Position numbers and translations under genes: made by a program. Of a stretch of 47,500 bases of DNA, positions 5,165 to 30,407 are shown piece after piece. The notes below the pieces were generated by a model. It was not told the DNA's origin, ran no database searches, and worked only from the letters and a program-made list of their open reading frames with translations. The stretch lies in contig KV908483.1 of assembly GCA_002005505.1 (NCBI GenBank), positions 184,335 through 231,834 on the forward strand, written 5' to 3'. Every line of letters starts with the position of its first letter. Position 1 is the first letter of the stretch. The DNA is from Botryococcus braunii. Lineage: Eukaryota; Chlorophyta; Trebouxiophyceae.

Positions 5165-5227
5165 TTCAAACAGAGTTCCTAGCTGTGAAGCAGCAGCTCT
5201 CAAGTCGTGTGCGTCCACCTCGGATAT

Positions 5228-5956
5228 TGTAAACTTCTGAGTTCGGCGTTCCCTGTATGACCCGGCACGAGGGTGTTTAGCCCGGCGACACTCTTGTTGT
5301 GTGTCGAGTAACAAGCAGTGTCGACTGTGAATGAGATGACTTGACTGGCAACAGTGAAGTAGCAAACACCCGAAGTGCTTTTGATGTCCCAATCAAGTCT
5401 TACAATGCTTATTGCTTTCTCTCATCACTCAGCAATTCAAACTACTCTATCGACGAAGTTACTGATAGTCTGCATTACCGATGTCCGATGAGCTAAGCAG
5501 TAGCACCTTTCTATTACACATTATCTAGACCCTTTCCTAATCCATTGTTCTTGTGCATGTGATGTCCTAACAGCAGTTTACCTGTATGACCCGGCACGAG
5601 GGTGTTTAGCCCGGCGACACTCTTGTTGTGTGTCGAGTAACAAGCAGTGTCGACTGTGAATGAGATGACTTGACTGGCAACAGTGAAGTAGCAAACACCC
5701 GAAGTGCTTTTGATGTCCCAATCAAGTGCCTCAACCCTTCGAGCCAGGAGCATATATCCTTTCGAGCAAACCGTGTCTGATTACCTCATCCTCCATTGTT
5801 AACGTGCAATTGGTCTAGATTGGTTCTGGCAGAACTCCTAGGTTCTGCCACCTATTACTCATTTTAATAAGTGGTCTCACTGGTAATTGGAGCTGATCTG
5901 GCCACTATTACTCTTCTGAGGGAAAGGCACCAAAATGTTCAGTCACTATTATAACA
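5228..5956 (-). repeat. Copia-1 3' LTR (left)
   Basis: It appears identical to 11824-12552. It holds a 147-bp exact direct repeat (5252-5398 and 5581-5727) separated by 182 bp. In sense (minus) order: U3, TATATG (5756-5751), exon copy 1 (5727-5582) ending CAG|GTAAAC, spacer ending TGTAAG (TGTAA 5404-5400), exon copy 2 (5398-5253), then a 25-nt tail to the LTR end. Confidence 0.95.
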
Positions 5957-5968
5957 CTTCCCCTTGCC
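5957..5968 (-). other. Polypurine tract of Copia-1
   Basis: Minus-strand GGCAAGGGGAAG lies directly before the 3' LTR, which begins TGTTATAAT in sense. This is the normal location for priming plus-strand DNA. Confidence 0.8.
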
Positions 5969-5974
5969 TTTTCC

Positions 5975-7717
5975 TCACAAAAACTTGGCCAAACCCAGAG
6001 CCTCACGATGTCCCTGAAATACCTTCCTTGTTAAAGGCTTCGTGAATATATCTGCCACATTCCTTGCAGAAGGAACGTATTTCACATCAACTTGACCCAA
6101 TGCAATAGCTTCCCGCGCAAAGTGGAAGCTGATAGCGATATGCTTGGTATGCTTAGAGAACACTGGATTTCTGAGATGATTGATGCATCCCTGATTATCA
6201 CAGTGAATCTTGACAATCCATGGGGAAATCCCAATTTCCTCCAGGAATCCCTTCATCCAATTGGCCTCTTTGACAGCTGCACTTGCTGCCATGAACTCAG
6301 CTTCTACAGTGGATGTGGCAACTGCAGACTGCTTCTTGCTCCCCCAAACTACAGCTCCACCAAACACTCTGATTACATACCCTGTAGTGGAAAATCGATG
6401 ATCTTGATCCCCACCATAATCTGCATCAACGAAACCCTCAAGCTCTGTGTCCTTCCCTCCAAGGACCAAAACGAGATCTCTGGTTGCCTTCAGATATTTC
6501 AACACTCTGATGGCTTCATTCCAGTGAGCAGTAGTAGGGGTAATCCTGTACCTGGAAAGCACTCCCACAGCCTGTGAAATATCAGGCCTGGTGGTATTTG
6601 CAATGTACAACAGTGACCCAACCAGTTCACAATACCTGTGTCCTGGTGGAAGTGGGCTCCCAGCACCAATGCTGTCACTGTTGTCCTTGGACAAAGGTCG
6701 CTGTGTGGCCACAAAATCTTTGGTCATAGGGGTGTCGGGCCCCACAGACTCCAGATCCAGCCCAAATTTCTCAACCAGTGCATCTATCTTAGGGATGCAG
6801 CTCAACGAAATGAGCCCTTTATCCCTATCTCTCATCACTTGACAGCCCAGAAAATCTTTCACCTCTCCTAGAACATGAATGGTGAACTCTTGCTTGAGTA
6901 ACCCCTTCACTCTCTCAATCTCTCCCATTCCCTTTGAAACTATTAGTAGATCATCTACATAAATCAACACAAATGACTTTCCTCCATCTACTGAACACTT
7001 CACATAGACACCAGCATCACTCTTGCACACTTCATAGCCCATGGTATGCAGCTTCTCATTAAGGGTCTTATGCCATGCCCTTGGAGCTTGCTTCAGGCCA
7101 TTCAAGGCCTTCTTCAAGCGACACACTGTGTTACCATCCCCATTTTCAAACCCAGGAGGTTGTGTGACATACACTTCCTCCTCTAATTCCCCATTCAGGA
7201 ACGCAGTCTTGACATCCACCTGGTGAATTTCAAGACCCTCTTGTGCAGCCACTGACAGTAAGGCTCTCCTAGATCCATAGCTGCTAGTTGGGGCAAAGAC
7301 TTCCATGACATCTACTCCAGGAATTTGCCTGCATCCTTGAGCTACCAGCCTAGCCTTGAACCTCAGCACATTGCCATGGGCATCCATTTTCACGGAAAAG
7401 ATCCAATGAACTGGAATCACCTTATGGCCACGAGGTCTAGGGACATACTCCATGACCTCGTGGGCATCCAAGGAATTCTGCTCTTCTTGCATAGCAGCCT
7501 TCCAATATTCCCACTGAGGGGACTTCTGTGCCTCCCTCAAGTTGGAAGGCACACTAATCTTCCCAAACCGTACCCCTGTGTGCTTCCCCTGATCTGGCTT
7601 GCTCTCACTCTCTCTTTCACCCACTACTCTTTCGCTGAATGTCGCCGCACTGCACCTGGGTGCAGGTTGTGAGGATTCTGACTTTCCTCGCTGCTCTCTC
7701 TCTCTCTTTTGACTCAC
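5975..7717 (-). CDS. Copia-1 reverse transcriptase-RNase H frame
   Basis: A 580-codon frame encodes the C-terminal part of a copia Pol. RT motifs are RFKARLVAQGCRQ (about 119-131), the Asp-bearing HQVDVKTAFLNGELEEEVYV (165-184) and the YVDD catalytic loop (253-256). RNase H follows: GFVDADYGGDQ, STTGYV, SKKQSAVATSTVEAEFMAA, then the C-terminal VADIFTKPL. The usually conserved LYGLKQAPRAW block reads ALNGLKQAPRAW, a Tyr-to-Asn change relative to Copia-2. The frame is separated from integrase by two frame changes at GA-rich microsatellites (sense) and a stop, so it is not translated with gag in this copy. The listed start lies in linker sequence and is not a true initiation site. Confidence 0.9.
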   Translation of the reverse strand: MSQKREREQRGKSESSQPAPRCSAATFSERVVGERESESKPDQGKHTGVRFGKISVPSNLREAQKSPQWEYWKAAMQEEQNSLDAHEVMEYVPRPRGHKVIPVHWIFSVKMDAHGNVLRFKARLVAQGCRQIPGVDVMEVFAPTSSYGSRRALLSVAAQEGLEIHQVDVKTAFLNGELEEEVYVTQPPGFENGDGNTVCRLKKALNGLKQAPRAWHKTLNEKLHTMGYEVCKSDAGVYVKCSVDGGKSFVLIYVDDLLIVSKGMGEIERVKGLLKQEFTIHVLGEVKDFLGCQVMRDRDKGLISLSCIPKIDALVEKFGLDLESVGPDTPMTKDFVATQRPLSKDNSDSIGAGSPLPPGHRYCELVGSLLYIANTTRPDISQAVGVLSRYRITPTTAHWNEAIRVLKYLKATRDLVLVLGGKDTELEGFVDADYGGDQDHRFSTTGYVIRVFGGAVVWGSKKQSAVATSTVEAEFMAASAAVKEANWMKGFLEEIGISPWIVKIHCDNQGCINHLRNPVFSKHTKHIAISFHFAREAIALGQVDVKYVPSARNVADIFTKPLTRKVFQGHREALGLAKFL

Positions 7718-8410
7718 AGTTTGCCCTTTCGAGCTTACTGCTTCGCACTCTCACATCGTCCTCCCAAACACAGGTATCTCTCGGAAAGCTCTTATAATTA
7801 GGCACATTCTCACACTGTCCGAGCTTCCGATTCACCTCCTCATCCACACTCTTACATGTCTGACGGGTTTCAGCCACATCAGAGCTCTCACAAGCAGTTG
7901 AACCACTCTGCACAGCTTGGACACTTGGTCTGTCTTGGTGTTGTGCCCATGTCTCTCTCTCTCTCTCTGTCTGCTCCCCACCAAACATGAGCGCTGGGGC
8001 GCAGGCCCAGTCGCTCCCTCACAAGCAAGGCCCACACTTGTGTGGCTGGCACCACATTGTCTTTGGGCATAACAGACAGAACTCACATCTCTAACAATCC
8101 CCTCAGGCACTGGACAGGTCCCACCCATACTTCTCAGCTCGCTTGGACCATTTTCAGTCTGATCAGAGACTGTCCCCCTTTCATCGCTCACATGTAGTTC
8201 AGGTCTCTCAGGATCCTGACCTCTTTCCTGCACTTCCCCTGGTCCCTGTGACTCGGAGTCACATTCAGTCACCCCCACTCGCTCACAGCTCTCTCCCTTC
8301 TCCTGTGCCAGCAGGAGCTCGCGAGCAGCAGTGCGATGCTCATAGCGTTGGGCCCGAGAGGGTCCATTCAAAGGCGGAATTACAGGAGCAGGAGGTGTAT
8401 TCCGGAGGGA
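7617..8410 (-). pseudogene. Copia-1 linker between integrase and RT, frame-broken
   Basis: After the integrase frame stops at TAG (8413-8411), the same frame stays open to 7832 with a low-complexity Glu/Arg/Ser/Pro-rich product, as expected for the copia integrase-RT linker. Frames then change near a (CT)n tract at about 7951-7970 and again near one at about 7690-7711. The overlapping frames 7988-7617 and 7717-5975 pick up the reading. The breaks fall at the simple repeats, which suggests slippage (replicative or sequencing) rather than loss of selected sequence. Confidence 0.7.
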
Positions 8411-11215
8411 CTACTGTGCTCGCTCCAAGGTCCGTTGATGCTGCCCACTGTCAGAGCCTCCTCGCGCAAGTTGCTGCAGTGTATCCAGTGCCCCGGACTG
8501 GTCCAGATCCAGCTGCAGTGGTTTCTCACTTGGTCCATGACCAATTTCTGGAGCGCCCTCCTCTTGGGAAGACTTCCCCTGACATGCAGGCTCGGTTGCA
8601 GCTTGGTCAGGGGGTCCTGGGAGGGTGCTGTCAGGTCTGCTGCTGGGGCAGGGAGCTTTGACAACCTGATTCTGAGTGCTGCACTGAGGTGAGGAGACTG
8701 TCGGGTCGCTGATGTGCTGCTGAGCTGGCAAACCTTCAGGATAAGAGAACTGTAGTGGCTGGTCAGGGAGGGTAGACATTCCCACCCGAGAGGCTCCTCG
8801 GATGTGTTCCACAAACTGGACATCTCTGCTCTCTCTCCAGACCCCCCCTCCCAGATAAATACGATATGCCTTGGACACTGGGGAATAACCAGTGAACATG
8901 CCAGGTACAGCCTTTGGTGCAAATACCCCCCTCTGCTGATCGGGCACATGCACAAATGCCAGGCATCCCCACGTACGAAGAAATGACACATCTGGCTTGT
9001 ATCCCATGAATAATTCACAAGGAGTGAGAGGCCTGCCTGTACTGGGTCCCATATTCAGGAGGATGCAGGCTGTTTCTAGGGCCTCTTTCCACATGACTGG
9101 GCTGGCACCAGCAAAATTGAGGAGGGTTCTGGTTCGCTCCTTCAAGGTCCTTTTGGCTCTCTCTGCTATCCCGTTCTGCTGGGGAGTGTAGGGGGCAGAC
9201 ATCTCCAGTTTAGTGCCCTGAGATGCACAGAACTCCTTGAATCTGGAATTAATAAATTCTGTGCCTCTGTCACACCGAATGCACTTGACAACTGTCCCTC
9301 TTTCTGTCTGCCAAAATAGGATCAGGTCCCTGACAACTGAGGCAATTACATCCTTTGACTTTACTGGTAGGACAGCCTTCCATCCAGATGCCTCATCAGC
9401 TACAGTCACCCAAAAACGTTCTCCAGAGATGGCTGCTGGTGAGATGGGGCCCACAGTGTCAATATGGATTCTGTCAAGAGGATTTATTGCCGGCCTGGAA
9501 CTTTCACCAAAGGGAGGACGGGTGTGCTTCCCCTCAATGCATGCTTCACAATACTTTGGACAGTTCTCACAGGATGACAGGGAGGTATCAATGCCTGTGA
9601 CCAGCTGTTCATTGCTCAGGCGCTGCATCCATGGTTCACCCGGATGTCCCATTCTGCTGTGCCACAGAAAGCGTTTTGCACAATCATGCTGCAGGTTCTT
9701 CTTGGATTTGTTCTTCACTGCAGCTGCCACTGGTAACGACCATTGTACTGGGGGAACAGATAAGCAGTCATGTACATAATAGAGACCTTTTTCTGCTCTA
9801 ACAGGCATCTTCCAGCCATTCGGGCCAGAGACTGTGGTAAATGCACCCATGCTGTCTGTGGTAAAGCAAGCTCCATCACGAAGGGCAGCAGAAACAGACA
9901 AGATGTTCATCGTTGCAGAGGGAACACACTGGACATGGTGCAGCCACAGTGGGATAGAATGCTGGTTCAATAGGCAGATTGATCCAGTGGCAGTGATTCC
10001 TCCTGTTGCATCAGACGTGGCCAGCTGCAGAGGGATAGGAGCAGCATGGACTGTGGGAGCATGTAACAGTGACAGATCATTGACAAGATGGACTGACGCT
10101 CCACTGTCTACCAACCAGAACTGTTTGGAAATTCTCCCCTTGCATGGTTTGAGAACATTATAGGATACCACGTGTGGCATACCTTCAGGTGGGGGAGAAG
10201 GTGGACCAGGTGGTGGGTGCAGCAGTGGGAACGCTCCCACTGCAGGGAAGACATGCTGGACTGGTGGTGGGGGCTGGGGTCCTCCAGGAAACTGACCTTG
10301 GGGCCACATGCCTGCCAGTTGCTGCACTGCTGCTACCACATTCCTCTGGGTTTCGGTGTCCCTCTGTCTCTTGCGGCAGTCTCTCCAGAAGTGTCCCCTT
10401 TTGTGGCAGTAGTTGCATGTACCACGTACTTCCCCCTTGGTCTCTGTGTCTGCAGGCTGTCTGGTGTGAGTCAAAGCACATGCAGTAGGGGCAGGGGCTG
10501 CAGCAGCCTGCACTGGTTGTGCAGTCATGACCAATGCAGGCAGATCTGGGTCATCATCGTAGCCCGTTGCATCTGCTATGGTGGAGATGAGGTCTGCGAG
10601 TTGGTCCAAGGGATAAGCAACGGCTGTAGGTAGTAGTCCAGGGGGGTTGGCAGCTGCTGGCAGACCCTGCACAATCTGTGTGGCCACGTGCCCATCTAGA
10701 AGATCATGTCCATTTCGTTTCAAGCAACCTTTCAGATTGATAATCCTATTGACATACTGAGAAATGGTTTCTCCTTGTTTCATGCCACGGGACATCTCCT
10801 TTAACCAGTCAGCATTGGCCTGAGTATTGTAGCCTCCCACAAACTTCCTACAAATATACACATATGCGTCATATGCCGATGGCTTACTTGACAGCTCCCC
10901 CAACCAGTCTTCTGGTACTGATTCATACAGCAACAATAATGCTGCGGCATTGTGGGTAGTCCCAGGCATAGCTTGTTGAATGGCTGGCAACGAACCCTTG
11001 GCATCATTTGCTGCAGTGAAAGCATTGTCCCACACCACAAAGTTCTGGCCCTTACGTTGCAGTTTTATATGTACCTTGACCTGAGTAGCAATAACCTTGG
11101 GAAGGGTGTCTCCTTCCCCTCTGGAGGTGCTGGGAGTGCAAGGCTCCCTGGTAGGAGTTGATGTGGACTCCTCTCCTGCTGACTTAGATTCTGTGCTGGT
11201 ACCCTTCTTCTTCAT
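8411..11215 (-). CDS. Copia-1 gag-protease-integrase
   Basis: This is an ATG-started frame of 934 codons. Gag occupies roughly residues 40-260 (UBN2-like pattern: VWDNAF, VPEDW, GMKQGETISQYV). A zinc knuckle CNYCHKRGHFWRDC lies at 267-280. The aspartic protease has DSGAS at 370-374. The GAG-pre-integrase region has an HHCC set (LWHSRMGHPGEPW ... CEACIEGKHT, about 517-566). The integrase core has D586, D649 and E685 with the exact D-35-E spacing. The C-terminal core domain ends in a Pro/Ser-rich linker. The frame stops at TAG (8413-8411), and the sequence stays open in the same frame beyond, so this is one in-frame stop. It starts 15 nt after the ORF1 stop. Confidence 0.93.
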   Translation of the reverse strand: MKKKGTSTESKSAGEESTSTPTREPCTPSTSRGEGDTLPKVIATQVKVHIKLQRKGQNFVVWDNAFTAANDAKGSLPAIQQAMPGTTHNAAALLLLYESVPEDWLGELSSKPSAYDAYVYICRKFVGGYNTQANADWLKEMSRGMKQGETISQYVNRIINLKGCLKRNGHDLLDGHVATQIVQGLPAAANPPGLLPTAVAYPLDQLADLISTIADATGYDDDPDLPALVMTAQPVQAAAAPAPTACALTHTRQPADTETKGEVRGTCNYCHKRGHFWRDCRKRQRDTETQRNVVAAVQQLAGMWPQGQFPGGPQPPPPVQHVFPAVGAFPLLHPPPGPPSPPPEGMPHVVSYNVLKPCKGRISKQFWLVDSGASVHLVNDLSLLHAPTVHAAPIPLQLATSDATGGITATGSICLLNQHSIPLWLHHVQCVPSATMNILSVSAALRDGACFTTDSMGAFTTVSGPNGWKMPVRAEKGLYYVHDCLSVPPVQWSLPVAAAVKNKSKKNLQHDCAKRFLWHSRMGHPGEPWMQRLSNEQLVTGIDTSLSSCENCPKYCEACIEGKHTRPPFGESSRPAINPLDRIHIDTVGPISPAAISGERFWVTVADEASGWKAVLPVKSKDVIASVVRDLILFWQTERGTVVKCIRCDRGTEFINSRFKEFCASQGTKLEMSAPYTPQQNGIAERAKRTLKERTRTLLNFAGASPVMWKEALETACILLNMGPSTGRPLTPCELFMGYKPDVSFLRTWGCLAFVHVPDQQRGVFAPKAVPGMFTGYSPVSKAYRIYLGGGVWRESRDVQFVEHIRGASRVGMSTLPDQPLQFSYPEGLPAQQHISDPTVSSPQCSTQNQVVKAPCPSSRPDSTLPGPPDQAATEPACQGKSSQEEGAPEIGHGPSEKPLQLDLDQSGALDTLQQLARGGSDSGQHQRTLERAQ

Positions 11216-11230
11216 GCTGTTGGGACCCTG

Positions 11231-11755
11231 TCAGTCGTCGCTCCTTTCTGACAGTCTGGAGTCTCCGTCCTCGTCCTCACTGTCGTCCTCTGTGACCCAC
11301 TCGTCCACGTGAAATTCGCCCTCACCGTAGAGAATTAGACGATCAATGAAGTCGTCTCCCAAGCTGCTCAAAGCTAGCTCAATCGCTGCGTAGGCGGCTT
11401 TCTCTGTCCAATAAGCTTCGTGCGATGGACCTCCCGTTTGCTGTAAGCACCTCTCAAAAATTGCTCTTGTCAGATATCCTGGCTCTCCGTTGATGAATGA
11501 GATTTCCCAAACAGTGAATTTATAAGCTGGATATATCGGAAAACGCTCTCGGAACCACTGAGGGGGTGTGAGTGCTCCCCGTCCGTGAGCTTCGTGGACG
11601 AAGTCCTTCACCAGGAATGCTCGTTCTTCTATCGTCCGTGGTCCCTTTTCTCCTCCTGCCTTTCTTCGCTCGTTATATGTTGGAGGAGGAGGTGGAGGTG
11701 GAGGAGGTCTACTTCCGCCCGTGCTCATACGTCCGGTTGGTCTCTTTCGCGCCAT
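11231..11755 (-). CDS. Copia-1 ORF1, unknown protein upstream of gag
   Basis: This ATG-started frame of 174 codons lies between the primer site and gag, with only 15 nt to the gag ATG. The N-terminus is basic and then proline-rich (a run of nine Pro, residues about 17-25). A folded-looking middle (WFRERFPIYP, WEISFINGEPGYL, AAYAAIELALSSL) precedes an acidic Ser/Asp/Glu tail (about 155-174). Ordinary copia elements start with gag, so this is an added gene. Copia-2 has an ORF at the same position (326 codons) with no obvious sequence match. A packaging, nuclear-import or gag-like role is possible, but nothing in the sequence shows it. Confidence 0.65.
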   Translation of the reverse strand: MARKRPTGRMSTGGSRPPPPPPPPPTYNERRKAGGEKGPRTIEERAFLVKDFVHEAHGRGALTPPQWFRERFPIYPAYKFTVWEISFINGEPGYLTRAIFERCLQQTGGPSHEAYWTEKAAYAAIELALSSLGDDFIDRLILYGEGEFHVDEWVTEDDSEDEDGDSRLSERSDD

Positions 11756-11804
11756 CGCAGACTACTTTGCCCAAGTCATACATTTTTTTCATGCCTCAGC
11801 AGAA

Positions 11805-11823
11805 AAGTCGTGGGCCCATGACC
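11805..11823 (-). other. Copia-1 primer-binding site (internal tRNA-iMet type)
   Basis: On the minus strand the 5' LTR ends TTTACA and is followed directly by GGTCATGGGCCCACGACTT. This is close to the complement of the initiator-tRNA anticodon arm (GGTTATGGGCCCACCACG for plant-type initiator tRNA), with a single mismatch in the first 14 bases. The usual 3'-CCA-complementary TGG start is absent. I infer a half-tRNA primer as in Drosophila copia. Confidence 0.75.
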
Positions 11824-11848
11824 TGTAAACTTCTGAGTTCGGCGTTCC

Positions 11849-12177
11849 CTGTATGACCCGGCACGAGGGTGTTTAGCCCGGCGACACTCTTGTTGTGTGT
11901 CGAGTAACAAGCAGTGTCGACTGTGAATGAGATGACTTGACTGGCAACAGTGAAGTAGCAAACACCCGAAGTGCTTTTGATGTCCCAATCAAGTCTTACA
12001 ATGCTTATTGCTTTCTCTCATCACTCAGCAATTCAAACTACTCTATCGACGAAGTTACTGATAGTCTGCATTACCGATGTCCGATGAGCTAAGCAGTAGC
12101 ACCTTTCTATTACACATTATCTAGACCCTTTCCTAATCCATTGTTCTTGTGCATGTGATGTCCTAACAGCAGTTTAC
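11849..12177 (-). other. Predicted leader intron of Copia-1
   Basis: The predicted donor is CAG|GTAAAC at 12177 and the acceptor is CATACAG ending at 11849, which is the end of exon copy 2. Removing these 329 nt joins copy 1 to the LTR tail. The product has exactly the sequence of copy 2 plus tail. The putative poly(A) signal TGTAA lies inside this intron. Confidence 0.55.
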
Positions 12178-12346
12178 CTGTATGACCCGGCACGAGGGTG
12201 TTTAGCCCGGCGACACTCTTGTTGTGTGTCGAGTAACAAGCAGTGTCGACTGTGAATGAGATGACTTGACTGGCAACAGTGAAGTAGCAAACACCCGAAG
12301 TGCTTTTGATGTCCCAATCAAGTGCCTCAACCCTTCGAGCCAGGAG

Positions 12347-12352
12347 CATATA
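12347..12352 (-). promoter_or_regulatory. TATA box of Copia-1 5' LTR
   Basis: TATATG in the sense direction has its first T 29 nt before the start of exon copy 1 (12323). Its spacing makes the start of copy 1 the likely cap site. The same motif is present in the 3' LTR at 5756-5751. Confidence 0.65.
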
Positions 12353-12557
12353 TCCTTTCGAGCAAACCGTGTCTGATTACCTCATCCTCCATTGTTAACG
12401 TGCAATTGGTCTAGATTGGTTCTGGCAGAACTCCTAGGTTCTGCCACCTATTACTCATTTTAATAAGTGGTCTCACTGGTAATTGGAGCTGATCTGGCCA
12501 CTATTACTCTTCTGAGGGAAAGGCACCAAAATGTTCAGTCACTATTATAACAGATAT

Positions 12558-13721: not shown

Positions 13722-14140
13722 CATGATGTTGTATAAACTGATAGGTACGTATAGATACGTGATGGCAAACGTACTAGATACAGGGGCGCTATCAGTTTAT
13801 CAAGTGGTTTTAGGAAACATTGTATAACTTGAATTTCTCCACGTGTGGAGTACAAGTAAGAAGATGCGCCTGATTGCGTGTCAAAGGGTATTGTATTATG
13901 TTCAGTTAGGTTGATCATATAAGTGACCTCCATGCAGTACAGGTCTTGTACTAGTGACGGTAAGGTCACAAGGTAAAGACTCCATTGAGTGTGTACGCGT
14001 GTATAAGTATGAGATCCCTGGTGCAGCTATAGAGCTACACGTTGGCATAGGGCCAAGTCAGGGTTGTTTATGTGACCATGCAGTACGGTACAGCCTCTCG
14101 AAAGGAACTGTACCGTTACCGCCGGTTACGATCAGAAGGC

Positions 14141-14147
14141 ATAGAAA
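14141..14147 (+). promoter_or_regulatory. TATA-like box of Copia-2 LTR
   Basis: ATAGAAA lies about 32 nt before the start of leader exon A (14172-14174). It is weaker than the Copia-1 box but equally placed, and it supports a transcription start at exon A. Confidence 0.4.
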
Positions 14148-14280
14148 CGCCAGATCGCGAGCAAGCTTGGCAGTCGATGGGGTGTGGAATGCATCTGGGC
14201 TTCGAGCTCCAAGCTGAATAGTGTTTGCTCTGTATTGAAGGACTGCTTGATATACTGCTGTCACATTCATTTCAATACAG

Positions 14281-14403
14281 GTAAGCTTGCGATCGCTGGC
14301 AAGGGTAACGGTCGCAGTCGTGTGGCTGCGATCGTAGGCGTTAAGCACATGCATACTGATGTTTCTGCTGATTATGAAACATTACATGTGTCTTGTGTTG
14401 CAA
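14281..14403 (+). other. Copia-2 LTR leader intron 1
   Basis: This 123-nt intron has donor CAG|GTAAGC. In the 3' LTR (21010-21132) it ends TTGCAG|GAGC, a proper acceptor. Here in the 5' LTR the last G is A (TTGCAAG|AGC), so the original acceptor is damaged and an AG one base downstream is available. The spliced copy at 14947/14948 uses the undamaged boundary. Confidence 0.9.
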
Positions 14404-14482
14404 GAGCTGCATTGCTTGTATGTTACTGTTGTGCGAACAGTAAGGCTATTTGTGTGTGACGAGTTGCACACTGGTTATAGCG

Positions 14483-14568
14483 GTGAGTACAGATACGTAT
14501 AACAAGCATGCTCCTGCTGGTTAAATAACTGTTTTGTTTTGATCTCTGATAGTCCACATATTGTGCAG
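14483..14568 (+). other. Copia-2 LTR leader intron 2
   Basis: This 86-nt intron has donor GCG|GTGAGT and acceptor TTGTGCAG|ATTGG. It is absent at the matching point of the joined copy (15026/15027). A 91-nt counterpart may survive in the old LTR at 102-12 (minus). Confidence 0.92.
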
Positions 14569-14640
14569 ATTGGTTGGGAGTAGCCATTAAACTCCTGGGA
14601 CTGCTGAAGGGCCAAGGGTGTCCTGATCGGAGAGCAGTCG

Positions 14641-14744
14641 GTACGTACACATATGTGGATAGGTTGCGTGTGTGTTTTATGTGGTTTAGATATATTTTAT
14701 GGACACTGATGAACCCACAAGTAAATCGTAACGCTCGGGTGCAG
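14641..14744 (+). other. Copia-2 LTR leader intron 3
   Basis: This 104-nt intron has donor TCG|GTACGT and acceptor GGGTGCAG|GCAG. It is absent at the matching point of the joined copy (15098/15099). Confidence 0.92.
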
Positions 14745-14811
14745 GCAGATATAGACGGCAGTGCGAGCACTGGTCTATACAGACATTGAGATTACTTGGT
14801 GGTGTTCACAG

Positions 14812-15165
14812 GTAAATATACGTAAACCATTTGTAACGAGTCGATGGGGTGTGGAATGCATCTGGGCTTCGAGCTCCAAGCTGAATAGTGTTTGCTCTGT
14901 ATTGAAGGACTGCTTGATATACTGCTGTCACATTCATTTCAATACAGGAGCTGCATTGCTTGTATGTTACTGTTGTGCGAACAGTAAGGCTATTTGTGTG
15001 TGACGAGTTGCACACTGGTTATAGCGATTGGTTGGGAGTAGCCATTAAACTCCTGGGACTGCTGAAGGGCCAAGGGTGTCCTGATCGGAGAGCAGTCGGC
15101 AGATATAGACGGCAGTGCGAGCACTGGTCTATATAGACATTGAGATTACTTGGTGGTGTTCACAG
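14812..15165 (+). other. Copia-2 LTR predicted intron 4, enclosing poly(A) signal and spliced copy
   Basis: The donor is CACAG|GTAAAT after exon D. The likely acceptor is TTCACAG|GAAG at the end of the joined copy. Splicing here would remove TGTAA and the whole of leader copy 2, and join exon D of copy 1 to segment E. The result is the same mature sequence as copy 2 followed by E. The acceptor choice is inferred. Confidence 0.55.
14832..14836 (+). terminator. TGTAA, putative poly(A) signal of Copia-2 LTR
   Basis: TGTAA is the usual poly(A) signal of chlorophyte algae, with cleavage typically 10-20 nt downstream. Here it stands 2-4 nt before leader copy 2, so cleavage would fall a few bases inside that copy. 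The equivalent in the 3' LTR is 21561-21565. Copia-1 and Copia-3 have TGTAA at the same place. Confidence 0.55.
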
Positions 15166-15232
15166 GAAGTGATTCTCCGACGGCATACGTACCGCTTACA
15201 GTTACGGCATCCTCCAACTAATACATAACAAA

Positions 15233-15250
15233 GGTGCTGGGCCCACAACT
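15233..15250 (+). other. Copia-2 primer-binding site (internal tRNA type)
   Basis: GGTGCTGGGCCCACAACT starts 2 nt after the LTR. It shares GGT..TGGGCCCAC with the Copia-1 and Copia-3 sites and with the complement of the initiator-tRNA anticodon arm. The two bases facing the anticodon differ (GC for TA), so either the site has drifted or a different tRNA is used. Confidence 0.6.
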
Positions 15251-15256
15251 TGCTGC

Positions 15257-16237
15257 ATGCCAGAGGAGGAAGTCATTGTGATCGAAGATACACCGGAACC
15301 TGAAGAGCAACGGACGCCGAGACCTTTCCCAACAACGAGAGGAAGAGGACTGCGACCTGCAGTACGTCAACAGCATCCAAGAAGACCGGAATACTCAGAG
15401 TATCCCATTCCTTTTGTCAGGACTCACTTTAAAGTTCCTGACTATTTTGGAGACCCGGGTCTGTATATTCATATTGAGAGGCCTGGTGTTCCAAAGGGTC
15501 AATTTCAAAGGCCAATTGTGCATCACCAAGACATTGTGCTGAACAATCTTCCTGATCCTGTTGAACGAGCAAACTACATCTTTGTTAAGACTTGTGAAAG
15601 TGAAGAAGGGTCCGCTCTGTGTGAAGGAATCATATCAACGGCATTCTTGGCTGGTCTGACACAGCCACGAGAGGAGCCCATTTTGGTCAAGTGGGAGGAA
15701 TTGATTGTGTTCAGTGATCCCCTTGCTGATAGCCTGGTGCATGAGGTAGCATACCTATACGGGAAGAGCCTTCCAAAAGAAGACTGGGAGGTGCACTATT
15801 TTCTGAAAGTGTGGAACCGTTTGCAGGAGTTATTTAAGCTAACTGCAGACGGGCCACTGGAAGGTTTTCCTTCGTTCTTTCTCGACAGAGCTATTGTTGA
15901 GGGAAGAGAGGGAACAGGACAGGTACTCAGGTGGTACAGAGAATACCACGTGTATATCGAGCTGGTACAGTTCCAGTTCCGTTTACACCAAGGGCAGAGT
16001 AAGGCAGTATTTGACCGACTGCCATCATGGAGGGAGGTGGAGGAGCTGGGACTCAATCCGTTGCGGCTCCATCCGGATTACTTCCAGACCTACGAGGGGA
16101 TCTCACGGGGGTGGCTGGAACCAGTGATGGGGTTACAGCGACTGACATGGGAAGAGATTCAGGAGTTGGAACAGCAGTGGCTAGGGGATCTGAACCGGCC
16201 AGTACATCTGGCCGGGAAGATCCGACGAGTCCAGTGA
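15257..16237 (+). CDS. Copia-2 ORF1, unknown protein upstream of gag
   Basis: The frame has 326 codons and starts at the first ATG after the primer site. The product begins with an acidic patch (MPEEEVIVIEDTPEPEEQ), then an Arg/Pro-rich segment (to about residue 50). A long globular region follows, rich in aromatic residues and Leu (PDYFGDPGLYIHIERPG, EDWEVHYFLKVWNRLQELF, LRWYREYHVYIELVQFQFRLHQ). There is no signal peptide, membrane helix or zinc motif. It ends 14 nt before the open gag-pol frame. Copia-1 has an ORF in the same slot with no clear sequence match. I do not recognise the family. Confidence 0.75.
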   Translation: MPEEEVIVIEDTPEPEEQRTPRPFPTTRGRGLRPAVRQQHPRRPEYSEYPIPFVRTHFKVPDYFGDPGLYIHIERPGVPKGQFQRPIVHHQDIVLNNLPDPVERANYIFVKTCESEEGSALCEGIISTAFLAGLTQPREEPILVKWEELIVFSDPLADSLVHEVAYLYGKSLPKEDWEVHYFLKVWNRLQELFKLTADGPLEGFPSFFLDRAIVEGREGTGQVLRWYREYHVYIELVQFQFRLHQGQSKAVFDRLPSWREVEELGLNPLRLHPDYFQTYEGISRGWLEPVMGLQRLTWEEIQELEQQWLGDLNRPVHLAGKIRRVQ

Positions 16238-16284
16238 ACTCCAGTCTGTAGGTCACCACCTCCTTAGATAGACTGGGTTTTTCG

Positions 16285-19200
16285 TTGGACATCTGGAAAC
16301 AAAATGTGTTCCATTGTGCCGTGAGCAGGAATGTGCTGGAATGCCCAAAAACGTCCATGCCGGGGACTAAAGGGGATGCAGTGGCACTGCATTTGTTGCT
16401 GCAAAAGGTTCCAGAAGTGTGGGCTCAGAAGGTGGCATTTGCTGAATCTGCAGCAGTGGCATTTAAATGGATTATGAGCCAGTTCCAAGGGGGAGCAAAC
16501 TTGGAAATCAATGACCAATGGTTGGAGCTGTTGGACAGTGAAATAATGGGGAATGAGGGCACGTTGGAAGAATATGTGGCTAGGAAAGAGCTGCTGGCAA
16601 AAAGACTGAACGATAACAACATGCCAGTAACGCAAACAAAACTCAAGAAGTCAATCCTGAAGTGCCTTCCGTACCAGTTTGATGCTCATAAACCAAGTTT
16701 ATCTTCTTCCACTGCTACATGCAATATTAACCAAACCTTGGCTGCTATAAGGGTGGTTGCAGAAACCATAGGTTTCAATGATCAGCAACCAAGGGCTCCA
16801 AGGGCGGCTGTTGTCCGCAAGCCGGGTCCGGCTGTCAGGAACGATAATCGGACATGCTATGAGTGTGGTGAGAGGGGGCACATTAAAGTGAACTGCCCAA
16901 GACTTGTGCACCCTCCTAACCGAGGTAACCCACCCACTGGAGAAGAGGTAAATCCAAGGGCAGGGATGGCATCCTCAAAGTTACAAAACACTGGGGAAGG
17001 GCAGTGGATTGTTGACACGGGTGCTACTAACCATATATGCAATGATTTGCATTTAATGTCCAATGTCATTGTTTATGATGAAGCCAAACCACTGGGACTG
17101 GCAGCGAGTGATGGTCAAGGATTGCGAAAGGCACAGGGAAATGTGTGTCTATCTGTGCAAGGTGGGGGAAGTGTGTTGCTTACACATGTTGAGTATGTCC
17201 CGACAGCGACTGATAACCTCTTGTCCGTGTCAGCTGCTGTCAAAGATAGATGCACATTCTCTGTAAATGAAAAAGGGGAATATGTGGCTGTCATGTGCCA
17301 GGCAAATGAGTTCATGTGTGATATTGAACCGAAAGGGAGCTTATACTTCCTGTCACACAAAAGTCGGCTCTGTGCATGGGGAGGGGCGGCTGCACTTTTA
17401 GTAACTACACGAGAAGAGACAGAGTTGTGGCACAAAAGGTTGGGACATCCGGGAGTTGTATGCATGTCAAGAATGTTGAGAGAGCAGATTGTGAATGAGG
17501 TTAAAGGAAGTGTGGGTGAAGTAGAAAGAGTTGTGACTCACTGTGACGGTTGTATACGGGGGAAGCAGACTAGGACTCCCACGCCTTCCTCCACTGCGGC
17601 TGAGTCTACTGAGAGACTTCAGCTGGTCCATATGGACGTAGTGGGAGAGCTGCCTGTGGCTGGGCTGAATGGAGAGAAGTATATGCTGGTCCTTTTGGAC
17701 GACTTCTCGCATAGAATCCAAATCAGGACGTTCAGTTCAAAGACTGAGGTAGGAGCACTCGTTCAAGAGGTCCTCTTGAATTGGGAGATGTCAACTAAAT
17801 GTAAAGTTGGCACTGTTAGGACGGACAGAGGTACTGAATTTGTAAATCGCGAGCTGGCAGATTTCTTTGCCAGAAAGGGGATCGCGCATCAGACCTCTGC
17901 ACCGTACACGCCTCAACAAAATGGCAAGGTAGAGCGTGTAAACAGGGTAATCAAGGAACGAGTGAGGGCTCTCCTCTTCACAGCAGAGGCAGGGCCTGAA
18001 CTATGGGCTGAGGCAGCACACACTGTGGTACGACTGCTGAATGTGAGTGCCGTCAGTGGAAAGGAGTCTTGTCCGTATGAGGCATTCTATGGCAAGAAAC
18101 CCTCAGTTGCTCACCTGAAGGTTTGGGGTTGTTTGGCTTATGTGAAGCTGCCTGATAGGCAGCTGTCAGCACTTGGTCCGCGCTCAGTTGCGGGCATGTT
18201 TGTGGGATATGAAACAGGATCCAAGGCGTATCGGATCCTGGTGCAAGGCAAGGTAATGGTGAGTAAGGATGTGAGATTTATTGAAGATGAGTTGGGCTAT
18301 CCGGTTGTAACTCCACCCACACTACAACCTGAAATGAGGGTTGAAGAGTTGTTTCATGATGAAGAGGAGGTACCTGAGGTTTCCCTGGAAGAGGCAATTG
18401 ATGCCCCGCGCGAAATTGCGATAAACCCGGAATTACGAACGGACGATATGCATGAAGTCATGAGGCGTGCACGGGAGGTTCTGCAGCAGCTTCCTGCAGA
18501 ACTTCCAGCCGGGGAAGTGACTGATGAGGGAAATGGTGATGGTGAAAGTCAAGGGCAGGCGAGTGAGAGAGACGAAGAGCAGCATGATAATGAGGAGAAT
18601 GCAGAGAGGGGAAGAGGTGGTGGGCGTTACGAATTGAGAGAGAGAGTTGGCCCGCCAGATAAGTATGTTCCTGGGGCATATCACACGCAAGTAAAAGCCC
18701 ATGCAGTAGTAGTTGAGGAGGCAAAATTGAAAGCATCAGAGTTGTCCATTCCAAAACACATTGGAGAAGCGCTTGCCAGTCCTCAAAAGGAGTACTGGAA
18801 GCAAGCCATGCAAGAGGAGCTAGATGCTATTGAAGAATGTGACACGTATGAGGTGGTGAGGAGGCCAGAGGGAGCAAAAGTGATTCCTCTGATTTGGGTG
18901 TTTGCCTTAAAGACGGATGAATATGGCGATGTCATCCGGTTTAAGGCAAGACTCGTAGCGCAAGGTTGCAGGCAGGTAGAAGGTATAGATTGTGATCAAA
19001 CCTTTGCACCTGTCAGCACCCATGCATGTAGGAGAGTGTTGCTGAATATTGCAGCAACAGAAAATCTTGAAATCCACCAAGTGGATATCAAGACGGCATT
19101 TCTCAATGGAGAATTAGAGGAGGAGGTGTATGTAACGCAGCCTCCTGGTTTCTCTAATGGTGATAAAAAGGAGGTGTTTCGCTTGAAGAAGGCTTTGTAT

Positions 19201-20319
19201 GGACTCAAGCAGGCACCTCGGGCATGGCACAAAAGGCTCTCCAAGGATCTTGGAGAGATGGGTTTCAAGGCATGTAGGAGCGACCCGGCCTTATTCTTGG
19301 ACTCCGGAAGGGGTGAAGACCGGGCGTTCATTGTTACCTATGTGGATGATTTGCTGATCATCTGCAAGAGTGGTGAGAGAGTGTCAGAAATCAAGGGTGA
19401 GTTGAAAGCAAGATTTGAGGTTCACGACTTGGGGGAAGTGAAGAACTTCCTCGGAAGTGAAGTCAGGCGCGATCGCGATGGGGGAGTGATAGTGATTTCC
19501 AACGCTCAGAAGATCAAGGATCTTGCGGAGTCATTTGGAGTGAGTGAGAGTGACAAGGGAGTGAGCACACCCATGTGTAAAAGCTTTGTGCAGACAGAGC
19601 TTCCACAAGGGAAGGTGGGGGATGAGAGTGCGGGTTCAGGGTCTCCACTACCGGACGGACACCGGTACCTGGAACTCGTAGGGTCACTGCAGTACCTGGC
19701 CAATACCACTCGTCCTGATATTTCACAGGCAGTAAGCCTGCTGGCACGTTACCGTGCTGCCCCAACCACTGCACACATGCGTGCAGGGTTGAGGATTGTG
19801 AGATACCTGTTGGGCACCAAGGAGATGGGTTTGGTTTATGGGGGAAAGGGGAAGCAAAGTCTGGCTGGCTTTGTAGATTCAGATTTTGCGGGAGATGTTG
19901 ATACACGAAAATCAACAACTGGTTTCGTGTTCATGCTGAATGGGGGAGCAGTGTCGTGGGGAAGTAAGAAGCAACAGTCAGTTGCTACTTCCACTGTCGA
20001 GGCGGAGTTTATTGCGGCGAGCCATGCAATAAAGGAAGGAGTATGGCTTGGGAGCTTGTTGGAGGAGCTCGGTCAGTCTGTGTCTGGTGTAGAATTAAGA
20101 ATGGACAACATGGGCTGTATTGCAAATCTGCAAAACCATGTATTGTCCAAATACACCAAGCATATTAGCGTGTGCTATCATCAAGCGAGGGAAAAGGTAG
20201 CATGGGGGCAGATCACGCCGGTGTACGTCAACACAGAGGAAAATGTGGCTGACATTTTTACAAAGCCGTTGGCCAGTCCAGCATTTCTCAAGCACCGTGA
20301 CAGCTTGAGAATGGGTTAA
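16285..20319 (+). CDS. Copia-2 gag-pol polyprotein
   Basis: One uninterrupted frame of 1344 codons, counted from a TTG at 16285; the frame is open from 16252 and the first in-frame ATG is at 16357. Gag lies at about 1-180. The zinc knuckle CYECGERGHIKVNC is at 191-204. Protease has DTGATNH at 244-250, and pre-integrase has LWHKRLGHPG...CDGCIRGKQT. Integrase has D451, D514 and E550 (exact D-35-E). RT has FKARLVAQGCRQ, HQVDIKTAFLNGELEEEVYV, LYGLKQAPRAWHK and YVDD at 1019-1022. RNase H has GFVDSDFAGD...STVEAEFIAA...NVADIFTKPL. All catalytic residues are present. Compared with Copia-1 gag, roughly 55 N-terminal residues and the ATG are missing, so how translation starts is unclear. Confidence 0.95.
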   Translation: MDIWKQNVFHCAVSRNVLECPKTSMPGTKGDAVALHLLLQKVPEVWAQKVAFAESAAVAFKWIMSQFQGGANLEINDQWLELLDSEIMGNEGTLEEYVARKELLAKRLNDNNMPVTQTKLKKSILKCLPYQFDAHKPSLSSSTATCNINQTLAAIRVVAETIGFNDQQPRAPRAAVVRKPGPAVRNDNRTCYECGERGHIKVNCPRLVHPPNRGNPPTGEEVNPRAGMASSKLQNTGEGQWIVDTGATNHICNDLHLMSNVIVYDEAKPLGLAASDGQGLRKAQGNVCLSVQGGGSVLLTHVEYVPTATDNLLSVSAAVKDRCTFSVNEKGEYVAVMCQANEFMCDIEPKGSLYFLSHKSRLCAWGGAAALLVTTREETELWHKRLGHPGVVCMSRMLREQIVNEVKGSVGEVERVVTHCDGCIRGKQTRTPTPSSTAAESTERLQLVHMDVVGELPVAGLNGEKYMLVLLDDFSHRIQIRTFSSKTEVGALVQEVLLNWEMSTKCKVGTVRTDRGTEFVNRELADFFARKGIAHQTSAPYTPQQNGKVERVNRVIKERVRALLFTAEAGPELWAEAAHTVVRLLNVSAVSGKESCPYEAFYGKKPSVAHLKVWGCLAYVKLPDRQLSALGPRSVAGMFVGYETGSKAYRILVQGKVMVSKDVRFIEDELGYPVVTPPTLQPEMRVEELFHDEEEVPEVSLEEAIDAPREIAINPELRTDDMHEVMRRAREVLQQLPAELPAGEVTDEGNGDGESQGQASERDEEQHDNEENAERGRGGGRYELRERVGPPDKYVPGAYHTQVKAHAVVVEEAKLKASELSIPKHIGEALASPQKEYWKQAMQEELDAIEECDTYEVVRRPEGAKVIPLIWVFALKTDEYGDVIRFKARLVAQGCRQVEGIDCDQTFAPVSTHACRRVLLNIAATENLEIHQVDIKTAFLNGELEEEVYVTQPPGFSNGDKKEVFRLKKALYGLKQAPRAWHKRLSKDLGEMGFKACRSDPALFLDSGRGEDRAFIVTYVDDLLIICKSGERVSEIKGELKARFEVHDLGEVKNFLGSEVRRDRDGGVIVISNAQKIKDLAESFGVSESDKGVSTPMCKSFVQTELPQGKVGDESAGSGSPLPDGHRYLELVGSLQYLANTTRPDISQAVSLLARYRAAPTTAHMRAGLRIVRYLLGTKEMGLVYGGKGKQSLAGFVDSDFAGDVDTRKSTTGFVFMLNGGAVSWGSKKQQSVATSTVEAEFIAASHAIKEGVWLGSLLEELGQSVSGVELRMDNMGCIANLQNHVLSKYTKHISVCYHQAREKVAWGQITPVYVNTEENVADIFTKPLASPAFLKHRDSLRMG

Positions 20320-20440
20320 GCCTAGAGTGTTGAAGTTCTAGGGCTTTAGGGCTTCAAAGATTCTAAGTTTGGCTCGGAAGAGTAGTGCGTTAATGGGAAC
20401 AATTGAACTCAACATTAATGAACGACATTATACATGTTTT

Positions 20441-20455
20441 TTAAAAGGGGAAGAT
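20441..20455 (+). other. Polypurine tract of Copia-2
   Basis: TTAAAAGGGGAAGAT directly precedes the TGTTG start of the 3' LTR. Confidence 0.8.
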
Positions 20456-21959
20456 TGTTGTATAAACTGATAGGTACGTATAGATACGTGATGGCAAACG
20501 TACTAGATACAGGGGCGCTATCAGTTTATCAAGTGGTTTTAGGAAACATTGTATAACTTGAATTTCTCCACGTGTGGAGTACAAGTAAGAAGATGCGCCT
20601 GATTGCGTGTCAAAGGGTATTGTATTATGTTCAGTTAGGTTGATCATATAAGTGACCTCCATGCAGTACAGGTCTTGTACTAGTGACGGTAAGGTCACAA
20701 GGTAAAGACTCCATTGAGTGTGTACGCGTGTATAAGTATGAGATCCCTGGTGCAGCTATAGAGCTACACGTTGGCATAGGGCCAAGTCAGGGTTGTTTAT
20801 GTGACCATGCAGTACGGTACAGCCTCTCGAAAGGAACTGTACCGTTACCGCCGGTTACGATCAGAAGGCATAGAAACGCCAGATCGCGAGCAAGCTTGGC
20901 AGTCGATGGGGTGTGGAATGCATCTGGGCTTCGAGCTCCAAGCTGAATAGTGTTTGCTCTGTATTGAAGGACTGCTTGATATACTGCTGTCACATTCATT
21001 TCAATACAGGTAAGCTTGCGATCGCTGGCAAGGGTAACGGTCGCAGTCGTGTGGCTACGATCGTAGGCGTTAAGCACATGCATACTGATGTTTCTGCTGA
21101 TTATGAAACATTACATGTGTCTTGTGTTGCAGGAGCTGCATTGCTTGTATGTTACTGTTGTGCGAACAGTAAGGCTATTTGTGTGTGACGAGTTGCACAC
21201 TGGTTATAGCGGTGAGTACAGATACGTATAACAAGCATGCTCCTGCTGGTTAAATAACTGTTTTGTTTTGATCTCTGATAGTCCACATATTGTGCAGATT
21301 GGTTGGGAGTAGCCATTAAACTCCTGGGACTGCTGAAGGGCCAAGGGTGTCCTGATCGGAGAGCAGTCGGTACGTACACATATGTGGATAGGTTGCGTGT
21401 GTGTTTTATGTGGTTTAGATATATTTTATGGACATTGATGAACCCACAAGTAAATCGTAACGCTCGGGTGCAGGCAGATATAGACGGCAGTGCGAGCACT
21501 GGTCTATATAGACATTGAGATTACTTGGTGGTGTTCACAGGTAAATATACGTAAACCATTTGTAACGAGTCGATGGGGTGTGGAATGCATCTGGGCTTCG
21601 AGCTCCAAGCTGAATAGTGTTTGCTCTGTATTGAAGGACTGCTTGATATACTGCTGTCACATTCATTTCAATACAGGAGCTGCATTGCTTGTATGTTACT
21701 GTTGTGCGAACAGTAAGGCTATTTGTGTGTGACGAGTTGCACACTGGTTATAGCGATTGGTTGGGAGTAGCCATTAAACTCCTGGGACTGCTGAAGGGCC
21801 AAGGGTGTCCTGATCGGAGAGCAGTCGGCAGATATAGACGGCAGTGCGAGCACTGGTCTATATAGACATTGAGATTACTTGGTGGTGTTCACAGGAAGTG
21901 ATTCTCCGACGGCATACGTACCGCTTACAGTTACGGCATCCTCCAACTAATACATAACA
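20456..21959 (+). repeat. Copia-2 3' LTR
   Basis: 1504 bp, with the same plan as the 5' LTR shifted by 6729. Leader exons with introns: A 20903-21009, B 21133-21211, C 21298-21369, D 21474-21540. TGTAA is at 21561-21565, and the joined copy is 21570-21894. Here every GT...AG boundary is intact, including the intron 1 acceptor, and I saw no mismatch between the four exons and the joined copy (325 nt). Confidence 0.95.
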
Positions 21960-22089: not shown

Positions 22090-22336
22090 AAATACCATTG
22101 CTACGGGAGGGCTAGTAAACCCCTCAGGAGGGGTGACTAAAGGGAACAAGCACGTGTCTCCAGATCACGGATGAATGATCTGAGATGTTTCAGGGGAAAC
22201 AACGGGTGAACGAACTCATTAAGGCTATCAAGCTTGGTCAAGGGCAGTGGATTCAAACTGGAGAGACAGGAGCGGTGTTTCACTAGCTTGACTGAGTATA
22301 CCCTGGTGACGGACGGCTCATCGCACCTTTATTGGT
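22090..22336. repeat. Split direct repeat A, left copy
   Basis: Nearly identical to 44128-44374 and 44517-44763. The visible differences are cattaagg here against ctttacgg there. Boundaries were set by where identity starts (aaataccattg) and ends (ttattggt). Confidence 0.92.
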
Positions 22337-23474: not shown

Positions 23475-23939
23475 TGTCGTAGAATGCACAAGTTAGAGAG
23501 AATTTCCAAGTTGTGAGAGAGAGAGAGACAAGGCCGGATGGCCGACAAGTTGGACGCTCTTTCCAATTACAAGTAACCCCCACCTCACGGAGCTTCCACT
23601 CCCTACTTGTGGTCTACTAAGCTTCCAAATTACCTGAGTGCGTGTCTTCCCGTGGCTTACGTCTCTATCCGTTCCTTCCCGTGGTTCGTGATCGTGTGTT
23701 CACGTTCCTCCAATGGTAGCGCACTAGTCCACCAAACCTCTACAATAGTATCTAGAAAATATCCTAGAATCCTACTATGAGAGTAACGTCCATAACTATC
23801 CAATGGAATTCGACGGCTAGGAAGCCAAGGCTAGACGCTAGGCACGTGCGTACTCGCGTTGCTCGTACGACATGTGCGCCTAGGCTCGGGGGTAAGGGAA
23901 ATGTCTAGAAATGCCGGGAAATCCCTACATTCCATCACA
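23475..23939 (-). repeat. Gypsy-1 3' LTR (left)
   Basis: 465 bp, TGTCGTAG...CCATCACA in plus reading, so TGTGATGG...CTACGACA in sense. It is about 13 bp shorter than the Gypsy-2 LTR, which has a local duplication around cacatgtggcg. The purine tract AAGGGGGGGATGA lies at its inner edge (minus, 23952-23940). Confidence 0.95.
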
Positions 23940-24904
23940 TCATCCCCCCCTTAATTCCTGCATGTCCTCATGCAGCCACATACACACATACAGTAGACCA
24001 CAATTATAAGGGAATGGTCGTCACCGAACGGCCCATCCACCAGCGCCGTTAGACCCTTGCCGAATGGGTTACATTAGGGTCCCCGCCTCCAAGTTATTCC
24101 CCTATCATCCCAAGCAATTGACTAAAGCGTCCATTTTTTTTTTGTTTTTTTTTTTAATTTATTTATTAGGTGTGCTTTATTTTAGTCCTAAGTACAATAC
24201 TGTACGATACGATACGACACGGTACGATAATTACGATAAATTACGATAAATTACGGCGAACTACGACGAACGTTCGCCTTATTCCTTTCGAACTATGCAA
24301 GTCCGCCTTTATTGACACATCCCTATTTATTATTTATTAAAACAATACAATGCTTGTGACACAACCGATAAACAATCCGAACAAGATAAATATGACACAG
24401 GTGTAGCTCAGTCCACAATGCTTCCCTAAAGTGGCTATCCATACAACACAGTTTCTTTATGATACATTGTCCATACTGTACACATACTGTACACATAAGG
24501 TACACATATAGTACATAGAAAGAAATCCATCCCAAGATGCCGAGTAGTCCATATCCAAGGGTTCCAAGTAGCCCATAGCCAAGGGTTCCAAGTAGCCCAT
24601 AGCCAAGGGTTCCAAGTCACTTCTGTACTTCAAGCCCACGTCCCAAGTGCTAGTTAAGCAGACTGCGGTTGCGCGCCATGTGTACTTCAATTCCCATCCC
24701 TGAATGCAGAACCCCGAGTTCAATGCATCGAAGCGGTATGAGGCCTCATGCCACACATACCGAGGTAGGCAACCTACCCCGTCCCTTGTCCCAAAGTACA
24801 CAAGATATACAGTCCCTACCATAGGTCCCGTCCCATGTATTCCCAGACACCAGGTGGGAACTCCACAAGTGGAATGAGGGGGACAACCGTCCGGAGGGGC
24901 CCGT
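23940..24904 (-). other. Gypsy-1 3' non-coding region
   Basis: It lies between the pol stop and the 3' LTR. It contains a T-rich run (plus, about 24134-24156), a patch of short tacgata/acgataa repeats (24190-24260) and a 24-bp in-frame tandem repeat (about 24545-24620; minus translation LEPLAMGY three times; Gypsy-2 has fewer copies). A frame overlapping the end of pol (25041-24457) stays open through this region. I see no recognisable domain in it. Confidence 0.6.
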
Positions 24905-29065: not shown

Positions 29066-29067
29066 GA

Positions 29068-30306: not shown

Positions 30307-30407
30307 CTACGGCCCACATATGAGAGTTAGGACCTTCCATCGAACGATCTCCCTCCTACGACTTTCCTCCTTCCACCACGCGAAAGACTTGCAGAGAACA
30401 ATTCGGC

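Follow-up and report, generated by a model that had tools for sequence, protein, structure and literature searches.

Strand transfer via the terminal redundancy R is the accepted route for Ty1/copia retrotransposons, and EVADE and Ogre are notable intron-bearing plant LTR elements, the introns of which make subgenomic RNAs, according to one review (PMC12786077); the same review recounts the intron-tagged Ty of 1985, whose intron was lost on passage through RNA. Regarding retroviruses, a second source gives the genomic RNA as the unspliced one and places the poly(A) signal in R in HIV-1 and foamy viruses, where U1, acting at the major splice donor, represses it in the 5' LTR, and in U3 only in RSV, MMTV and HTLV-1 (PMC12789967). 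For complex LTR insertions in Triticeae, a change of structure by abnormal template switching during reverse transcription has been described (PMC1950507).

The window analysed here, a stretch of 47,500 nucleotides from the green alga Botryococcus braunii, contains two Copia elements, Copia-2 and Copia-1, the LTRs of which carry their leader twice. The analysis makes it very probable that these are Copia elements with a spliced 5' leader in the genomic RNA, in which the LTR would be rebuilt in each cycle from two differently processed ends. Going beyond the original prediction, which had described a processed leader copy in tandem with its unprocessed form, the second leader copy seems to undergo renewal together with its element, and several Copia families of this genome share the plan.

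The Copia-2 LTR and its two leader copies

The two LTRs of Copia-2 are 1504 nt each and differ at 4 of 1504 positions, and CATGA on both flanks forms a 5-bp target duplication (Table 1). The pol product has the domains in copia order, Pol_BBD, gag_pre-integrs, rve (443-543) and RVT_2 (853-1098), with the integrase before the reverse transcriptase. Just inside the 5' LTR, GGGCCCAC is found in both Copia-2 (15231-15250) and Copia-1 (11804-11823), and may point to priming by part of an initiator tRNA; GGTGCTGGGCCCAC, which follows the Copia-2 LTR, may resemble the complement of initiator tRNA. Comparison of the reverse transcriptase piece with solved structures gave no match, and one scan of viral contigs detected no relative. 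Among host genes, RuBisCO large gave no match, SQS_PSY had matches on two contigs, and exons of HSP90 were present.

The presence of a leader with introns, followed after 29 nt by the same four exons joined, was borne out in both LTRs, the exons of 107, 79, 72 and 67 nt aligning without gaps to positions 14841-15165, with 0 mismatches in 325 in the 3' LTR and 1 in 325 in the 5' LTR. The predicted donors GTAAGC, GTGAGT and GTACGT, the GTAAAT after copy 1 and the acceptors TTGCAG (TTGCAA in the 5' LTR), GTGCAG and GTGCAG were likewise confirmed. The stretch common to copies 1 and 2 starts 2 bases earlier than had been predicted, its first letters being an AG located at 14172 in copy 1 and at 14839 in copy 2. 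Another AG closes copy 2 (CACAG/GAAGTG, 15165/15166) and could serve as acceptor for the GTAAAT donor. The leader start occurs twice in the Copia-2 LTR with the only TGTAA, which we take to be a poly(A) signal as in green algae, between the two, an arrangement that, with these putative sites, speaks against a continuous R.

Table 1. Positions of the Copia-2 and Copia-1 features in the window.
Feature	Position	Strand	Remarks
Copia-2, whole element	13727..21959	+	LTR pair, CATGA target duplication, RVT_2, rve, gag_pre-integrs
Copia-2 5' LTR	13727..15230	+	TGTTG..TAACA
Copia-2 3' LTR	20456..21959	+	
U3, 5' LTR	13727..14171	+	promoter part; ends GGC before putative start A at 14172
Leader copy 1, 5' LTR	14172..14811	+	exons to 14280, 14404-14482, 14569-14640, 14745-14811
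Intron 1	14281..14403	+	GTAAGC..TTGCAA (AG intact in 3' LTR)
Intron 2	14483..14568	+	GTGAGT..GTGCAG
Intron 3	14641..14744	+	GTACGT..GTGCAG
Putative last intron	14812..15165	+	GTAAAT donor, TGTAA, copy 2, end CACAG; 354 nt GT..AG
TGTAA, putative poly(A) signal	14832..14836	+	only TGTAA of the LTR (position 1106 of the 3' LTR)
Joint letters	14837..14838	+	CG here; differ among elements
Leader copy 2	14839..15165	+	four joined exons
U5	15166..15230	+	start of exon after putative last intron
ORF at gag position	15257..16237	+	no Pfam match
pol ORF	16285..20319	+	
Candidate polypurine tract	20443..20454	+	AAAAGGGGAAGA
Leader copy 1, 3' LTR	20901..21540	+	
Putative last intron, 3' LTR	21541..21894	+	TGTAA 21561-21565, copy 2 21568-21894
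Copia-1, whole element	5228..12552	-	same LTR plan
Copia-1 3' LTR, leader copy 1	5582..5727	-	one exon, then GTAAAC
Copia-1 3' LTR, TGTAA ahead of copy 2	5400..5404	-	another TGTAA earlier in spacer
Copia-1 3' LTR, leader copy 2	5253..5398	-	ends CATACAG/GGAACG
Copia-1 5' LTR, leader copy 1	12178..12323	-	
Copia-1 5' LTR, leader copy 2	11849..11994	-	

Regarding other repeats in the window, Gypsy-type elements with a chromodomain-bearing pol lie in opposite orientation at 23475-38214, and their alignment of 6034 columns gives 98.8% likeness; three Gypsy-type LTR copies of the window were free of internal repeats. A fragment at 4990-5167, on the opposite strand and adjoining Copia-1, is about 78% like the Copia-2 U3, and a tandem repeat with a period of 389 nt, its units 99.6% alike, occupies 44001-44909, part of it also occurring at 22090-22336 just after Copia-2.

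The plan in the Copia-2 family and in other Copia elements

When the genome assembly was searched for a pattern spanning the copy 1 end, at a tolerance of 3 mismatches, 138 places matched, and the reversed control matched 2. The sample comprised 108 loci, in which two places are represented twice, and hence 106 distinct genomic places which, since they were chosen by match to the leader-duplication structure, provide no measure of how common other plans are. The full order E1 i1 E2 i2 E3 i3 E4 i4 E1E2E3E4 (E, exon; i, intron) was present in 95 of the 106; in these, 282 of 285 internal donors are GT and 283 of 285 internal acceptors are AG. Only 5 of the 570 internal splice dinucleotides in these 95 places deviate, and exon joins elsewhere were seen at none of the full-order Copia-2 places, in agreement with the original prediction, under which joins in other copies of the family fall on GT..AG boundaries. 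The terminal donor was GT in all 95 full-order places, and the AG closing copy 2 was present in 91 of them. The remaining 11 places were truncated, deleted, interrupted, masked or at a contig end, L091 having an extra repeat; an intronless copy 1 together with a copy 2 was detected at none of the 106 structure-picked places, several being too damaged to judge.

An extra leader copy or part copy was observed in L021, L091 and L101, and the added middle copy of L091 retains intron 3; a standard LTR on the same strand (L012), 6.75 kb from L091, is probably its partner. The interpretation of L021 and L091 as captured partly spliced leaders was dropped, since unequal recombination fits equally well, and these loci are therefore not used as proof. 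Two further irregular forms were seen, a Copia-2 LTR in which the end of a Copia-1-like LTR takes the place of exon 1 ahead of intron 1 (L010), and two places with a full copy 2 where copy 1 is reduced to its final 27 nt, preceded by the same unrelated sequence (L022 and L023).

Regarding other Copia elements, Copia-1 has identical LTRs of 729 nt with a spacer ending in TTGTAAG, its joint pattern occurs at 440 places in the assembly, and its reverse transcriptase is 56% identical to that of Copia-2. A search with a distant reverse transcriptase as query listed 150 matches, which fell into several groups, and the 3' ends of six loci were examined; the plan with two internal introns was present in all six, and all 12 internal introns were GT-AG. 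These six loci, Copia-1 and Copia-2 all have CAG/GT at the end of copy 1 and CAG at that of copy 2. In each of the eight, the stretch common to the two copies begins at a C/A step of copy 1, and copy 2 is preceded by a TGTAA that starts at a distance of 4-7 nt, its last A being the first base of the copy where the distance is 4; L120, L122 and Copia-1 have one further TGTAA, intronic or in the spacer, between the two starts of the leader. Since the pol ends of L121, L124 and L125 are identical, these loci represent one family, which gives six leader types in all. The leaders of L121 and L123 are recognisably related (71%), the pairs L121-L122 and L122-L123 are slightly above shuffled sequences, and the leaders of L120, Copia-1 and Copia-2 gave no BLAST match to any other leader type. 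The pol end of L120 is 89% identical to that of Copia-2 over 149 aa and their leaders are 55% alike, with shuffled sequences reaching up to 55%, which suggests that leaders turn over and the plan stays.

The joint before copy 2 consists of 1-4 letters and varies among elements in both Copia-1 and Copia-2. At the 106 Copia-2 places the joint is CG (62), CC (17), TG (15), C (3), G (3), CCG (2), TC (2), GG (1) or CT (1), and among the 100 Copia-1 matches listed of 440 it is G (43), TG (30), C (17), AG (3), TAC (2), TAG (2), CC (2) or AGGC (1). The letters ahead of copy 1 are constant (98 GC, 1 GT, 7 unmatched). LTRs paired by spacing agree in their joint in 25 of 25 Copia-1 pairs (shuffled mean 8.0) and in 26 of 28 Copia-2 pairs (shuffled mean 12.6), the two disagreements being L077/L078, with C to T, and L034/L035, probably a wrong pairing. 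On a weakly resolved tree of U3 and introns from 70 LTRs, with 11 of 62 inner branches starred, the joint changes 25 times (mean 29.1 and range 24-31 in 300 shuffles), and a control trait, the letters of which are themselves within the tree columns, changes 3 times, against 17.6 when shuffled. A third family has one joint, with no extra letter, in 99 of the 100 matches listed (101 in all), and variable joints are therefore not a general feature.

Origin and age of the second leader copy

Divergence was analysed in 78 distinct LTRs, obtained from 91 loci with all segments near full length after removal of 13 identical ones. The exons of copy 1 and copy 2 of the same LTR differ by a mean of 0.79%, and between LTRs the values are 2.31% for copy 1, 2.43% for copy 2 and 3.39% for the introns. 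Of the LTR cells with minority states present in at least two LTRs, 225 have the state in both copies, 31 have it in copy 1 only and 36 in copy 2 only, and the states confined to a single LTR, which are taken as mostly later mutations, are found in both copies in 22 cases, in copy 1 only in 59 and in copy 2 only in 75. The subfamily haplotypes, defined by nine markers, are equal in the two copies in 75 of 78 LTRs.

Pairing of LTRs by spacing alone gave 28 elements, of which 22 have both LTRs complete, with L034/L035 omitted as a doubtful pair. In the 21 elements that remain without L042/L043, the two copies differ on average by 1.33 and 2.10 in the two LTRs, and copy 1 and copy 2 differ between the two LTRs by 1.00 and 1.86, respectively; with L042/L043 included, the values are 1.59 and 2.36 within versus 0.95 and 1.82 between LTRs. 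An outlier with 16 differences (L063) was retained in all of these means. In 12 Copia-1 LTRs, the two copies differ from each other at 0-2 letters and the LTRs at 0-6, a variation too small to add much. Since the markers are alike and the distance within an LTR is about that between the two LTRs of an element, copies 1 and 2 evolve together and copy 2, judged by these sequence distances, is about as young as the element. These data indicate that transposition produces copy 2 anew from spliced RNA.

Mosaic elements bear on the same question. In L085, the U3, copy 1 and introns are nearest to one subfamily and copy 2 and U5 nearest to another, the break being the joint before copy 2, which is where a first strand transfer would fall and which would make this LTR a natural cross. 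In L042/L043, the two LTRs of one element, copy 2 is from another subfamily and U5 is like the first subfamily, by a comparison over 65 nt with few markers; this element would need one more template switch, within the leader or where it ends, and counts against the simple form of the model.

A query combining the U3 tail with the joined exons revealed five one-piece LTRs among 40 scored of 346 candidates, four matching over all 318 letters and one over letters 1-312. All five read U3-E1E2E3E4-U5, without introns or a second copy, and TGTAA is absent from the part fetched, which runs from about half of U3 to U5. They were counted as three elements: L126 by itself, the pair L127 and L128 at a spacing of 19.4 kb, and the pair L129 and L130 at a spacing of 6.1 kb; in both L127 and L128 one base is missing directly before the leader. 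The exons of the three elements belong to three subfamilies, two having 0 differences from intron-bearing relatives and L127 having 3, and the joins therefore probably arose separately. Such elements would be the product expected if spliced strong-stop DNA landed on copy 1 instead of copy 2.

Among other explanations of these observations, an old duplication whose copies have been kept alike by gene conversion or recombination, through DNA or cDNA, is improbable. Conversion would yield like copies, and the extra leader copies of L021 and L091 and the part repeat of L101 show that such exchanges may happen; however, it would have to proceed exon by exon while sparing the introns between, and it leaves unexplained the exon-exon joins beside U3 in three elements, the break of L085 at the joint with U5 following copy 2, and the constant position of TGTAA across all leader types. 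Somewhat less probable still is a single ancestral event that joined an unspliced LTR end to end with cDNA of the spliced leader and has been passed on passively ever since, for which one event per leader type would suffice and with which the single plan of the full-order Copia-2 places agrees. Under such inheritance the copies would have diverged before the subfamilies, yet the marker haplotypes are equal in those 75 of 78 LTRs; passive duplication also predicts the opposite of the finding that the distance between copies is about that between the two LTRs of an element, and neither the variable joint letters nor the unlike leaders with the same plan are foreseen by it. Gain of introns, by introner-type insertion, in copy 1 of a pre-existing tandem repeat can be set aside as very improbable, for although it likewise leads one to expect exact GT-AG boundaries, the same gain would have to be repeated separately in unlike leaders, and neither the joint evolution of the copies nor the order U3-E1E2E3E4-U5 in three subfamilies, with exons equal or nearly equal to those of intron-bearing relatives, is explained.

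A proposed replication cycle and its relation to known systems

Renewal of copy 2 from spliced RNA is thus the preferred reading, and it is probable that this lineage replicates via an RNA spliced at its 5' end only, the LTR being composed of a genomic-type part and a renewed cDNA of its own spliced leader. There is a similarly good probability that the LTR is a hybrid in this sense, the genomic-type part comprising promoter, exons, introns and a poly(A) signal situated within an intron. The evidence consists of the exact splice boundaries, the plan in six leader types, the young copy 2, the mosaic and the exon joins in three intronless elements; from these we infer the start site, the use of the splice sites, the poly(A) site and the events at the RNA level.

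Transcription would start at the first base of copy 1. In the transcript of the 5' LTR, the internal introns would be removed and the donor of copy 1 joined to the AG closing copy 2, so that the putative last intron would take out TGTAA and copy 2 together and the mature 5' end would consist of exons-U5, letter-identical to copy 2-U5. In the 3' LTR, the RNA would be cut and polyadenylated just past TGTAA, a few bases into copy 2, leaving U3, the intron-bearing copy 1, TGTAA and the start of the leader as the RNA 3' end. Reverse transcription would then copy U5 and the spliced leader into strong-stop DNA, the 3' end of which could pair with the leader start at the 3' end of the RNA in the first strand transfer, and extension through the introns into U3 would give U3, copy 1 with introns, TGTAA, a fresh spliced copy and U5. 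The introns would survive in this model because copy 1 comes from the unspliced 3' end; retention of introns 1-3 at the RNA 3' end is required by the model and is left unexplained by it.

If this reading is true, the lineage has a new means of retaining its introns and of confining the use of a poly(A) signal to one end, the whole promoter-leader block would be exchangeable, as in L120 with its Copia-2-like pol end and unlike leader, and each insertion would record where the 5' end of its parent RNA started and how it was spliced, as well as, in two families, the letters of the joint, providing a natural system in which first-strand transfer could be read event by event from the genome.

Compared with known systems, these elements are like Ty1/copia elements, including Tto1 and Tnt1, in the LTR pair and the copia-order pol, but here R-U5 looks like the cDNA of a spliced leader, and the LTR contains introns. 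They resemble EVADE and Ogre in having what would be functional introns, given the putative splicing, in an LTR retrotransposon; in contrast to those elements, the introns studied here lie within the LTR, and reverse transcription appears to act on the spliced RNA. The Triticeae insertions are fused elements, whereas the arrangement described here is a standing plan across several families.

Introns of a retroelement are expected to be lost in one cycle when the spliced RNA is the template. Unlike the intron of the tagged Ty, the natural introns persist here despite what would be a spliced template, being supplied in the model by the other end of the RNA; they are present in the 95 examined Copia-2 LTRs, and in this reading the unspliced 3' end stores them. 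A limited literature search, which lends such an absence weak support, found no account of introns kept in this way inside an LTR.

Regarding retroviruses, the problem is the same, namely to make use of the signal in the 3' LTR while passing over it in the 5' LTR. In contrast to them, the signal here would be transcribed at the 5' end but would lie in an intron and be removed, and, in contrast to retroviral repression by a downstream donor, the donor lies upstream of TGTAA. If true, splicing would resolve the old problem of one LTR sequence acting as promoter and as terminator, and these elements would add a third solution for keeping the poly(A) signal of the 5' LTR out of use, beside the two described for retroviruses.
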